A stretch of DNA of 44,903 nucleotides from Crocinitomicaceae bacterium. GTDB taxonomy: Bacteria; Bacteroidota; Bacteroidia; Flavobacteriales_D; Crocinitomicaceae. Under the pieces are notes generated by a model, which ran no database searches, was not told where the DNA came from, and saw only the letters and a list, made by a program, of their open reading frames with translations. The translations under genes were made by a program, and so were the position numbers. This document shows, piece by piece, positions 127 through 12,850 of the stretch (the first letter of the stretch is position 1; each line of letters begins with the position of its first letter). The DNA is taken from assembly GCA_029252405.1 (NCBI GenBank), contig JAQXBM010000096.1:1-44903 (forward strand), given 5' to 3'.

Positions 127-580
127 TCACTCTTCGTTAAGGGCAAACAATTCTGACAACCATTCATTCAAGGAAATATCAAAGTTACAATCATCAACAC
201 CAATGAATAACTGCTGTATGGTCACTTCATAATGACATGTACAACCAGACCTGACAATCAGAGGTAATTGAGAAGAAAGATTGTCATCAAGCTTTTTTTG
301 CTGTCTGTCTGTCTGTCAAAGTAATCTGATTTTTTTGAACTAGTTCTTTACAAACCAAGCTGCTTACAAAGATTTCCGTTTGTTTATGGGATTTCAGAAG
401 CTTTATTATTGCCTTGTAATCTTTGTTTTTAAAGAGTTCTTCAATTTGTACAAATACTTTGGATCTTCCCGCCGTTATTCCAATGACAAAGCCAATTGAT
501 TCAGGTTTGTCCGGTGTTTTTTCCTGAGCATTTAATTGCCCTGCTAGCAAGAGCACAATAAATAACACCACAATTTTCAT
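127..580 (-). pseudogene. small secreted protein gene, frame broken at a (GACA)4 tract (possibly phase-variable)
   Basis: The first frame runs 580 to 287. It starts with a signal peptide (MKIVVLFIVLLLAGQLNAQ) followed by a charged domain, and stops as ...TDRQTAKKA. I chose the ATG at 580 over the one at 643 because it sits directly before the signal peptide. Just before the stop the minus strand carries four GACA units (about 301-316) and then seven A. Beyond this the +1 frame stays open to a stop at 127 and reads like real protein: KKLDDNLSSQLPL, a CTC motif, a CNFD motif, and an acidic end WLSELFALNEE. Loss of one GACA unit would join both frames into about 149 residues. So this is either a slippage-switched gene or a frameshifted pseudogene. 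The family is not recognised. Two lone Cys-containing motifs in the second half suggest a periplasmic or surface protein. It lies 96 nt downstream of sulP on the same strand. Confidence 0.7.
300..317 (-). repeat. tetranucleotide microsatellite (GACA)4 next to an A7 run
   Basis: The plus strand reads four CTGT units, preceded by a run of seven T at about 293-299. On the coding minus strand this is GACA x4, then GC and A7, exactly where the reading frame of the secreted-protein gene is lost. Tetramer tracts change frame by slipped-strand mispairing, because each unit shifts the frame by one base modulo three. Only loss of one unit (or gain of two) restores the downstream frame. Confidence 0.85.
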
Positions 581-676: not shown

Positions 677-2260
677 TTAATAAACGTGGCTATCAATCGT
701 ATTTTCAATATTATAGTTTTCCTTAAAGCCTTTCAGAACGACATTAATGTTCTTTTCTTTCGAGCCGTTTTCGTTGAAATCTCTGATTATTTCCAGTACG
801 TCATAATCGATGTAAACGGTGTTTTCAGCGTTAATGATCACCCTTGAGTTTTCGGGTAGATGAGCTAAGGTTTGTTTAATCGCTGCTTTGTTCAGGAATG
901 AAACCTCCTGAGCCAAATCAATGTGAATGTCTTCACCTTCCTTGTGCTTCTCTTTTTTGAAGTAGTAGGCCAATTTCATATTTCCTTTCAGAATGAAGAT
1001 AGAACTAACAGCTAGACCAATTCCCACGCCTTTCAATAAGTCCAAACTGACCACGCCTATAGCGGTAACGAGGAAAGGGATGAAATGTGTTTTTCCGATC
1101 CCCCACATTTTTCTAAATACCATAGGGCTTGCCAATTTATAGCCTATCAACAGCAATACGGCTGCCAGACTTGCAATGGGTATTTTATTTAACAGCGTAG
1201 GAATCAGAATTACGGTAAGCAGCAAGAGGAAACCATGAAATATGGCTGAGAACTTGGTTCTTGCACCAGCATCTATGTTGGCTGTTGTTCTGACAATTAC
1301 TGACGTCATAGGTAAACCACCAATTAAGCAAGACAGGATGTTTCCCAAACCTTGAGCCCTTAGCTCGGTATTACCGCTTGAATATCGCTTGTACGGATCC
1401 ATTCGATCTCCTGCTTCTATGGTCAAAAGACTAGCAATGCTGGCTACTGCGGCAATGGTCAGCGCTGTAACCCAAATGTCTGGATTCGATATAAATGTGA
1501 AGTCTGGGAATGAAAACTGTCCGATGAATTCTTCTGCTGAACCAGGGACAGGGAGTTTCACCAAATGATCTCCTGTTACATGAAGGTTAGGACTAAACAC
1601 ACGGAATAATTCATTCAAAATAACGCCGAAAACTACCGCTATCAATGCGCCAGGAAGAAGTTTAATCTTTTTTAGAAAGGGAATGGTAGTAAATGCGATT
1701 AAGATCCCTAATGAGATCAGCGTGATAATGATAACCCCCGTATGAGCAAAATTAAAGGAATGGATAATCTCATTGAAGTATCCATCATCCATGCTATCGG
1801 TTAGACTGTAGTTGAAAAAATCGCCTTCATGCTCTTTATCGTAGCCGATGGCGTGAGGTATTTCTTTGAAAATAATAATGAGTCCGATTCCTGATAACAT
1901 CCCCTGAATCACTCCAGATGGAATATAGTTTGAGAAAGTTCCGGCTTTGGCAAAACCAAGTATTAGCTGGAATACTCCTGCCAGAACCCCTGCCAATAGG
2001 AAGGCTTCAAAACCTAAATCTTGAATAGCGACTATGACAATTGCAATTAAACTCGCAGCTGGACCAGAAACACTCACGTGAGAGGCACTCAAATATCCTA
2101 CAACTAAACCGCCTACGATACCTGTTATGACACCCGAAAATGCCGAAGCTCCAGAAGCACCTGCAATCCCTAAACAAAGTGGTAAGGCAACCAAGAATAC
2201 AACAACACCTGATAAAGCATCGGTATTAAATGAAGAGAATAATGAATTGTTTTTGCTCAT
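677..2260 (-). CDS. SulP-family anion transporter
   Basis: Inner-membrane transporter of the SulP/SLC26 family. Members move sulfate, bicarbonate or other anions, and the substrate cannot be told here. The 527-residue protein starts with the family's amphipathic lead-in (DALSGVVVFLVALPLCLGIA) and the early membrane segment ending SHVSVSGPAASL. About ten to twelve hydrophobic segments follow up to roughly residue 430. The C-terminal 95 residues (IDLAQEVSFLNKAAI...VIINAENTVYIDYDVLEII) have the strand/helix pattern of a short STAS domain. No carbonic anhydrase gene is adjacent, so the bicarbonate role sometimes proposed for bacterial SulP proteins has no contextual support. ATG start at 2260; no clear TAnnTTTG promoter seen upstream. 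Confidence 0.9.
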   Translation of the reverse strand: MSKNNSLFSSFNTDALSGVVVFLVALPLCLGIAGASGASAFSGVITGIVGGLVVGYLSASHVSVSGPAASLIAIVIVAIQDLGFEAFLLAGVLAGVFQLILGFAKAGTFSNYIPSGVIQGMLSGIGLIIIFKEIPHAIGYDKEHEGDFFNYSLTDSMDDGYFNEIIHSFNFAHTGVIIITLISLGILIAFTTIPFLKKIKLLPGALIAVVFGVILNELFRVFSPNLHVTGDHLVKLPVPGSAEEFIGQFSFPDFTFISNPDIWVTALTIAAVASIASLLTIEAGDRMDPYKRYSSGNTELRAQGLGNILSCLIGGLPMTSVIVRTTANIDAGARTKFSAIFHGFLLLLTVILIPTLLNKIPIASLAAVLLLIGYKLASPMVFRKMWGIGKTHFIPFLVTAIGVVSLDLLKGVGIGLAVSSIFILKGNMKLAYYFKKEKHKEGEDIHIDLAQEVSFLNKAAIKQTLAHLPENSRVIINAENTVYIDYDVLEIIRDFNENGSKEKNINVVLKGFKENYNIENTIDSHVY

Positions 2261-4572: not shown

Positions 4573-5478
4573 CTATTTACCTTCCAAATAAGCGGCAGTC
4601 TCTTTCGAGCAAATAAGAAAATTGAAGGAATGATCCTGATTGGCGTTTTCCCTTCTCAAATGATTTCTTTCAGTCAAGGTCTTCGCGGTTTCATTGATTT
4701 CAAAAAACAGATAGTCTTCACCTTCAAAAAAGCGTTCAATCTTTTCACCCGCTTCGTTATTCATGACCTCGATGAGGAAATCGGGTTTGTGTTTTGAAAT
4801 CAAATCGCCCATTCCCTCCAATACTTCTGTCTCGAACAATTCCACATCAATTGAGATAAGATCAATATTGGTGATTCCTTTTTGTTCGACAAAATCGGAA
4901 AAAGTCAGTGTTTGTACTTTTCGGATCGAAGAATGAGCATTATTTTTCGCTGCTTCATCAATGACCAAGGATGAAGCCGCGGATGATTGCTCCATATCAT
5001 GAAAATCCGCTGTGCCGTTTACATTTGAGAGTGCTACTTCTGATACCTCTACACTGAAATCGTTTACCGAGATATTTTTCTTCAGCATGGATAAAGCATT
5101 CAACGAAGGTTCAAAGGCGTGCACGGTGCATGTAGGATTAGCTGCTTTTGCTGCAACAGAATACAATCCGAAATTTGCACCGATATCGAAGGCGTTTTCC
5201 GACCTTGAAGCAAGTTTCATCCAGATCTGAATGGATTTTGCGTCCCAAGCATTTTCCATCCCTTTGTAAAAAATCTCCAACATTCCTTTGTCCGACTTAG
5301 TGGAGTACAAGTAAAAAGATGTTTCACCCAGCGTTACCTTAAATCTCCCTGTAAACCAGATATCACGAATGAATTTATCATAATCCACCTTCAAAATTTT
5401 CATAAGGTGGATGAGTTGTTTTTTGAATGGGAGATATTTCCAACTAGAAATGAAGAGAGAGTAGATTTTTGATTTCAT
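4573..5478 (-). CDS. FkbM-family SAM-dependent methyltransferase
   Basis: Probable O-methyltransferase of the FkbM family, which typically methylates sugars or other hydroxyl groups in polysaccharides and secondary products. Visible features are a SAM-binding motif (AFDIGANFGLYSVAA), an acidic second motif (VHAFEPSLNALSMLKKNI), and the family's IDLISIDVELFETEVLEGM block, followed by KPDFLIEVMNNE. There is no signal peptide. I chose the ATG at 5478 (301 residues) because the longer frame would need a TTG at 5505. A TATCTTTG element lies upstream. It stands alone with no glycosyltransferase genes nearby, so the substrate is open. Its stop codon abuts a sorting-domain relic, which suggests the gene arrived by recombination. 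Confidence 0.85.
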   Translation of the reverse strand: MKSKIYSLFISSWKYLPFKKQLIHLMKILKVDYDKFIRDIWFTGRFKVTLGETSFYLYSTKSDKGMLEIFYKGMENAWDAKSIQIWMKLASRSENAFDIGANFGLYSVAAKAANPTCTVHAFEPSLNALSMLKKNISVNDFSVEVSEVALSNVNGTADFHDMEQSSAASSLVIDEAAKNNAHSSIRKVQTLTFSDFVEQKGITNIDLISIDVELFETEVLEGMGDLISKHKPDFLIEVMNNEAGEKIERFFEGEDYLFFEINETAKTLTERNHLRRENANQDHSFNFLICSKETAAYLEGK

Positions 5479-12265: not shown

Positions 12266-12850
12266 ATGAAACGATTTCTTTCTCTCATTACACTTTGTCT
12301 GTCTGTCTCATTTGCTTTTGCTCAACATGGCACTGACGCAAGTGCTGAATCCGATGCGGATGCTCCTAAAATCAACTGGTTGACCTTCGAAGAAGCGTAC
12401 AAATTGCATCAAACTGAACCAAAAAAGTGGGTGATTGATGTATGGACTACATGGTGTGGATGGTGCAAAAGAATGGACGCAACAACCTTTTCAGATTCCA
12501 TAGTAATTGATCATGTGAACGAAAATTTCTATGCCGTTACCATGGATGGAGAGTATAAAAAGGACATTCAAGTTGGCGAACGTGCTTATCATTTTGTTGA
12601 TCAAGGACGAAGAGGATATCATGAACTTCCCGCAGAATTGATGGGAGGAAAAATGTCCTATCCAACAATTATCTTTTTAGGAGACGGTTTACAGAACTTA
12701 TCTGCTATCCCTGGATACAAGGGCGCGAAAGACTTTTTGCAAATAGTAGAATTTTTTGAAGCGTACGATCCAGAAGCGAACCCAATCAAATGGGAAGATT
12801 TCGTAGCGACCTACGTTTCGCCATATCCGGAGGAGACAACAACCAACTAA
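12266..12850 (+). CDS. exported thioredoxin-fold protein
   Basis: Predicted periplasmic thioredoxin-like protein of 194 residues. The ATG at 12266 is chosen because the signal peptide (MKRFLSLITLCLSVSFAFAQ) starts there; the upstream frame from 12218 has no such start. The redox motif is WCGWCKRMD with cysteines 64 and 67, preceded by WVIDVWTTW, the usual thioredoxin beta strand. The cis-proline loop is MSYPTIIFL. The WCGWC form is common in DUF255/thioredoxin_7-type proteins that handle disulfides or act with cytochrome maturation. It is convergent with DUF1304, 4 nt apart, and not in an operon. Confidence 0.88.
   Translation: MKRFLSLITLCLSVSFAFAQHGTDASAESDADAPKINWLTFEEAYKLHQTEPKKWVIDVWTTWCGWCKRMDATTFSDSIVIDHVNENFYAVTMDGEYKKDIQVGERAYHFVDQGRRGYHELPAELMGGKMSYPTIIFLGDGLQNLSAIPGYKGAKDFLQIVEFFEAYDPEANPIKWEDFVATYVSPYPEETTTN

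Follow-up and report, generated by a model that had tools for sequence, protein, structure and literature searches.

Organization of the locus

The window analyzed here, the whole of contig C12 with its 44,903 bases, belongs to a draft genome of 4.28 Mb in 102 contigs. Close to one end of the window, on the minus strand, an open frame of 97 residues (287..580; ATG at 580, TGA at 289-287) carries a signal-peptide-like start and the first half of a domain and ends in LTDRQTAKKA. Its +1 frame is open on the same strand for a further 62 codons plus a stop (127..315; TGA at 129-127) and carries the second half of the domain. A GACA tract of 17 bases, or 4.25 units (301..317, minus strand), is stop-free in all three frames and is followed directly on its 3' side by a run of seven A (293..299, minus strand). 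An in-frame TGA at 318-316 bounds the downstream frame upstream and thereby confines the frame change to the 32 bases from 318 to 287 of the minus strand, between the TGA closing each frame, and these 32 bases consist mostly of the GACA tract and the A7 run. The tract is a repeat of a non-triplet unit inside a reading frame, situated between two frames, which is the arrangement looked for in an SSR contingency locus. One GACA unit fewer would give a single frame of 149 residues; this is a matter of arithmetic only, the sequence having been left unaltered.

These features agree with the first-pass annotation of the region, which had described a frame from 580, the GACA units, the A7 run and a +1 frame of about 60 codons reaching 127. 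All were found at those positions, and the +1 frame, open from 315 to 127, has the offset that had been proposed.

A family of secreted proteins with a CxGC domain

Neither piece of the gene matched a Pfam model above the cut-off, and no NCBIfam model was matched above the cut-off by the upstream piece. In 59 other genomes (60 with the window's own; 33 of the others from the same genus), no match to either piece was found at E <= 0.001, and a scan of genome contigs with the upstream piece gave 110 pattern matches and no relatives. A second locus of the window's gene was not found in the 60 genomes or in the contig scans. When the upstream piece was searched against 399 genomes of the order, 27 of them matched at E <= 0.1; the own genome and two others (G130 and G145) were followed, and the 24 weak ones were set aside. 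The proteins matched by the upstream piece included one of 167 residues in a Fluviicola MAG (Crocinitomicaceae; E 1.3e-5) and one of 174 residues in a second Fluviicola genome (E 0.008).

Profile searches widened this set. In the family-wide search, 13 of 240 genomes matched, namely the own genome and 12 others, including both Fluviicola genomes. The order gave matches in 16 of 399 genomes at E <= 0.01 and the phylum in 5 of 345 at E <= 0.001; from both searches only loci recognizable as the same domain were retained, which for the phylum meant one besides the own genome. The first half of the window's gene was recovered independently by two profiles (E 8.4e-5 and 1.1e-4).

The 15 homologues used below are the 14 non-own places of the 240-genome profile search together with locus L077. 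Nine loci were inspected, and five were kept: L063, L065, L066 and L068, which are identical with L103, L102, L107 and L106, respectively, and L077. The four that were dropped were L069 (stops), L073 (a different protein), L078 (CLGC with an internal stop) and L071, a distant relative that has CEG but no CxGC and was excluded from the 15; its existence means that relatives without CxGC occur. The inclusion filter called for C.GC and G..C in the chosen frame and was passed by 15/15 submitted loci, and the first cysteine and the CxGC motif are present in all 15 homologues used.

What these homologues share is a C-terminal domain of about 110 residues. The domain follows a longer N-terminal part in 11 of the 15 and lies near a signal-peptide-like start in the other four (L103, L104, L105 and L112). 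Pfam and NCBIfam searches with two of the homologues gave no model at the cut-off. The proteins belong to an unnamed secreted domain family of Bacteroidota, whose members include L102, L106, L108 and L115. When the Fluviicola homologue was predicted alone, the structure had a mean pLDDT of 38.6.

Relation of the two frames

A profile built from the 15 homologue domains was compared with both pieces of the gene. The upstream piece matched model positions 6-64 with 22 bits (P 5e-9). The downstream +1 frame matched the adjoining stretch, positions 74-101, with a weak 2.7 bits (P 0.005); the profile gave -1.7 bits to one of the remaining downstream frames and did not report the other. Taken as a shorter piece, the downstream half scored 4.2 bits, which was reached by 10 of 2000 shuffled copies (1749 of the copies were scored, and the rest had no match). 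The elements SGCT and TI..L align between the downstream frame and the family. The weak co-linear match and the shuffling result thus indicate that the second half is probably related to the family, on modest evidence. All 15 homologues continue past the point at which the first frame ends. The two frames, both of which match the family profile in order, the second weakly, are therefore most likely the halves of one secreted-protein gene, as the first-pass annotation had held.

The gene matches the profile of the CxGC-domain family in sequence and is interrupted at 287-318 instead of forming an intact single frame. The family's first cysteine is replaced by I, and the first cysteine of CxGC is replaced by R (RSGC). 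Since both of these family cysteines are replaced, the gene product is called a divergent relative and not a full member. It had been suggested earlier that the short form lacks all conserved-looking cysteine motifs; this needs correcting, in that one cysteine is kept in the short form (VCKEL) and that RSGC stands behind the tract in place of the family's CxGC.

Nature of the frame change

The distance from the first cysteine to CxGC is 75-76 residues in 13 of the 15 homologues. When three landmarks of the first half were measured to CxGC, the spacing was 76/45/32 residues in five homologues (L103, L104, L105, L112 and L077), 75/44/31 in eight, 73/42/29 in L111 and 78/45/32 in L116; a spacing of 46 or 33 was found in none of the 15. 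The three landmarks are mutually dependent and therefore count as one measure, not three, and the CxGC anchor in the window's gene (RSGC) is itself weakly supported.

If the window's gene is four bases too long, its spacing becomes 76/45/32. If it is one base too long, the spacing is 77/46/33, which occurs in 0/15 homologues. A sequence two bases too short would give 78/47/34, and one eight bases too short 80/49/36; the gain of two GACA units restores the frame, yet with a spacing that is present in none of the homologues. By this count, one extra whole GACA unit would fit the family spacing, whereas an indel in the A7 run or a gain of two units would not. Slippage of the tetramer is the likely cause of the frame break. 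The first-pass annotation had offered the loss of one unit and the gain of two as possible repairs, and only the first of these agrees with the homologues. A tetramer-sized offset at the GACA tract is the best candidate for the cause, and the error in the A7 run that had been put forward as an alternative finds no counterpart in the spacing of the family.

Rarity of the GACA tract

The sequence (GACA)4 occurs once in the 4.28-Mb draft genome. In a genome sample of 376,452 bases, made up of the window and 20 further stretches of the own genome, the tract is the longest tetramer tract, and the next two have 13 bases each. None of 10 simulated samples of equal size contained a tetramer tract of 16 bases. 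A third-order Markov model, applied to 214 million simulated bases (50 genomes), gave an expectation of 0.24 primitive tetramer tracts of at least 17 bases per genome of this size. Because of this expectation, the tract taken alone is only mildly unusual; its significance is its position at the frame break. Homopolymer runs of at least seven bases, counting any base, numbered 136 in the 376-kb sample.

A second GACA-type run, TGTCTGTCTGTCT, of 13 bases, was observed at 12296-12308 of the window. It lies in the signal-peptide region of a gene with an intact frame, which we take to encode a thioredoxin-like protein.

Neighborhood and mobile element

The gene next to the broken frame (677..2260, minus strand), presumably encoding a SulP-type anion transporter, was used as a synteny probe. 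Its nearest relative, L005, is 88% identical and has different genes behind it, and the genome of L005 gave no match to either piece; the spot therefore varies between species.

On the other side, a repeat that reaches the end of the contig (1..121, minus strand) starts five bases after the second frame's stop codon. Contigs C51 and C53 (loci L120 and L121) end in copies of bases 1-121 with 98-99% identity, and bases 1-111 are identical in the three contigs. The copies in C51 and C53 also lie behind a gene, in the orientation found in the window. Some part of the repeat was matched in 14 of 240 genomes of the family, the own genome included. The outermost 17 bases, AGTAACCGTTGCACAAC, are common to the window's element and an element of genome G216; 42-56 bases of the window's element end match the G216 element at 80-82%. 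The G216 element has a transposase that passes the IS1182 model NF033551 (292.4 bits; cut-off 270). Bases 1-121 are probably, judged by these matches, the end of an IS1182-type insertion sequence. The contig stops 111-121 bases into the element, and the transposase part of the window's copy is unassembled; that the contig ends here is probably due to the element being multicopy. The flanks examined of two other IS1182 transposases of the own genome did not carry this element end.

The junction of the element was described by the pattern TAACANN followed by (A/G)GTA(A/G)CCGTTGCACAA, in which TAACA is partly an artifact of the search. Among the loci fetched, the pattern was found at 12 distinct loci in several genomes of the family. 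At 7 of the 12, an open frame of 60 codons or more has its stop 3 to 11 bases ahead of TAACA; among the other five, the distance is 40, 77, 98 and -3 at four, and no such stop was found at one. In the window, TAACA lies 7 bases behind the stop of the gene, and GTTAGGT lies ahead of the gene. TAACA sites behind stop codons recall the attC sites of integrons. The element may have its target behind genes, for instance at a hairpin resembling attC. L150 is a further locus at which this multicopy, probably IS1182-family element was seen at TAACANN.

The repeats at contig ends behind genes had suggested a possible integron, but the repeat end matches an IS1182-type element. No protein of the own genome exceeded the cut-off of the integron integrase model TIGR02249, the best reaching 204.5 against 265 bits. 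This protein, a tyrosine recombinase at 660-1595 of contig C79 (L129), passes NF040815 with 225.6 against 220 bits, the label of that model being recombinase/integron integrase. Contig C53 (L121) carries GTTATATGC at position 229, toward its left end, and GCATATAAC at position 4587, toward its right end; the two are perfectly complementary, which would also be expected of the outer arms of an integron-type site. By its look, the left edge of C53 is presumably the start of an IS110-type transposase; a Pfam search with the 27 residues at this edge gave nothing.

Explanations of the frame break

The explanation that we hold to be probable is a slippage frameshift in a divergent and probably decaying accessory gene, which would be mostly a one-way event rather than a switch under selection. 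By slipped-strand mispairing, the copy number of the GACA tract would have changed by one unit, and this would have put the second half out of frame. The present sequence would then yield a truncated protein of 97 residues without the C-terminal motif. The outcome would be mostly one-way decay of an accessory gene under weak selection, with back-slippage still possible at a low rate. In leave-one-out comparisons, the 15 homologues scored 14.7-36.7 bits in the downstream half and 28.3-77.3 bits in the upstream half; the window's gene reaches 4.2 bits downstream, below every one of them, and 23.1 bits upstream. Plain decay had been named earlier as an alternative along with a sequencing error in the A7 run; the low scores of both halves and the replacement of both cysteines favor decay, and the A7 error is not favored. 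Counting against decay, the 62 downstream codons are stop-free, which means that the break is not old or that the long form is sometimes made, and the paired loss of cysteines could be a functional divergence.

True phase variation, in which gain and loss of GACA units lets cells alternate between making the secreted protein at full length and making truncated forms, and the assembly has captured the off state, is possible, but it is not the most likely reading, and we regard it as unlikely. The longest tetramer tract of the 376-kb sample lies within the 32-base break interval, it is stop-free in every frame, and one copy number yields the spacing of the family. GACA is also the unit of lgtC of Haemophilus influenzae (PMC2651432). 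That gene resembles the window's gene in having the GACA unit in the reading frame, a shift of frame with each unit and three states; the lgtC tract is different in that it has 8 to 38 units, varying across 16 H. influenzae genomes (PMC2651432), whereas the window's gene has four units in one genome and looks degenerate. Four units are fewer than the five or more at which PhasomeIt counts tetramers in Campylobacter (PMC6321876), although they exceed the threshold of the H. influenzae survey, which counted tracts of more than two units (PMC2651432). Against a switch, moreover, the downstream half is poorly conserved, below all 15 homologues, and none of the 15 homologous genes has a tetramer tract longer than 11 bases. 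In the literature on phase variation in Bacteroidetes, Flavobacterium and Riemerella, titles and the openings of abstracts mentioned no such tract, most subscription journals lying outside this search. The earlier proposal of phase variation is left without support, given the short tract and the conservation of the part behind it, which is lower than in each of the homologues. It is quite unlikely that the GACA tract functions as a slipped-strand switch of a secreted cysteine-domain protein, encoded by an accessory gene beside a mobile element in a presumably free-living member of the Crocinitomicaceae.

It is improbable that the downstream frame is unrelated, so that the short protein would be a complete and real product and the resemblance behind the tract a matter of chance. 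The resemblance behind the tract is a weak one (2.7 to 4.2 bits), and open frames of such length are common: over 37 ORFs taken as genes, 178 off-frame stop-free stretches of at least 55 codons were counted. Both halves have low codon scores, at 0.05 per codon for the upstream half and -0.03 for the downstream half, against an average of 0.19 over 221 in-frame blocks. The downstream value is higher than in any of the five alternative frames of this stretch; it is ambiguous, in that 4.5% of in-frame blocks are as low and 19% of the 178 off-frame open blocks are as high. The match nonetheless has the frame, the order and the spacing that are expected; SGCT and TI..L align, 10 of 2000 shuffled copies score as high, and every homologue extends beyond the break point.

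An error of assembly or sequencing, or a mixed population in which the rarer allele became the consensus, is very improbable. In its favor, 300 bases separate the tract from the contig end, which lies in a multicopy repeat, and the draft has 102 contigs. The tract itself, however, is short and lies outside the repeat, and a one-base error in the A7 run gives a spacing that no homologue has.

Rescue at the RNA level, by slippage during transcription or by ribosomal frameshifting at the A7 run so that both products come from one DNA state, is hardly credible: the run does lie inside the 32-base interval and RNA minus one A would enter the downstream frame, but a -1 ribosomal shift on A7 leads to the third frame with a stop within 13 codons, one base fewer gives 77/46/33, and runs of this length are common in the genome sample.

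Comparison with known proteins and elements and significance

The CxGC-domain secreted proteins of Bacteroidota, of which the Fluviicola MAG protein (L101, P0001) is an example, have in common with the window's gene the signal-peptide-like start, the IGF..G start of the domain, the K.Y..I core and the SGCT strand, as well as a 76/45/32 spacing once the four-base difference is allowed for. Unlike these proteins, the window's gene has its first cysteine and the first cysteine of CxGC replaced, a weak second half and a broken frame. The element behind the gene, for its part, resembles elements of the IS1182 family in the end AGTAACCGTTGCACAAC, which it has in common with the transposase-bearing G216 element, and differs from them in having no assembled transposase.

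An unnamed secreted domain family also emerged from the analysis, as did a mobile element that is frequently located directly behind stop codons. Even if the break is an ordinary frameshift, residue spacing across a family can distinguish, with no need of reads, between a change in a tetramer and one in a homopolymer. Tetranucleotide phase variation is best known from host-adapted pathogens. If the tract at this locus does switch, tetranucleotide phase variation would be extended to a bacterium of the Crocinitomicaceae, on a mobile accessory gene.
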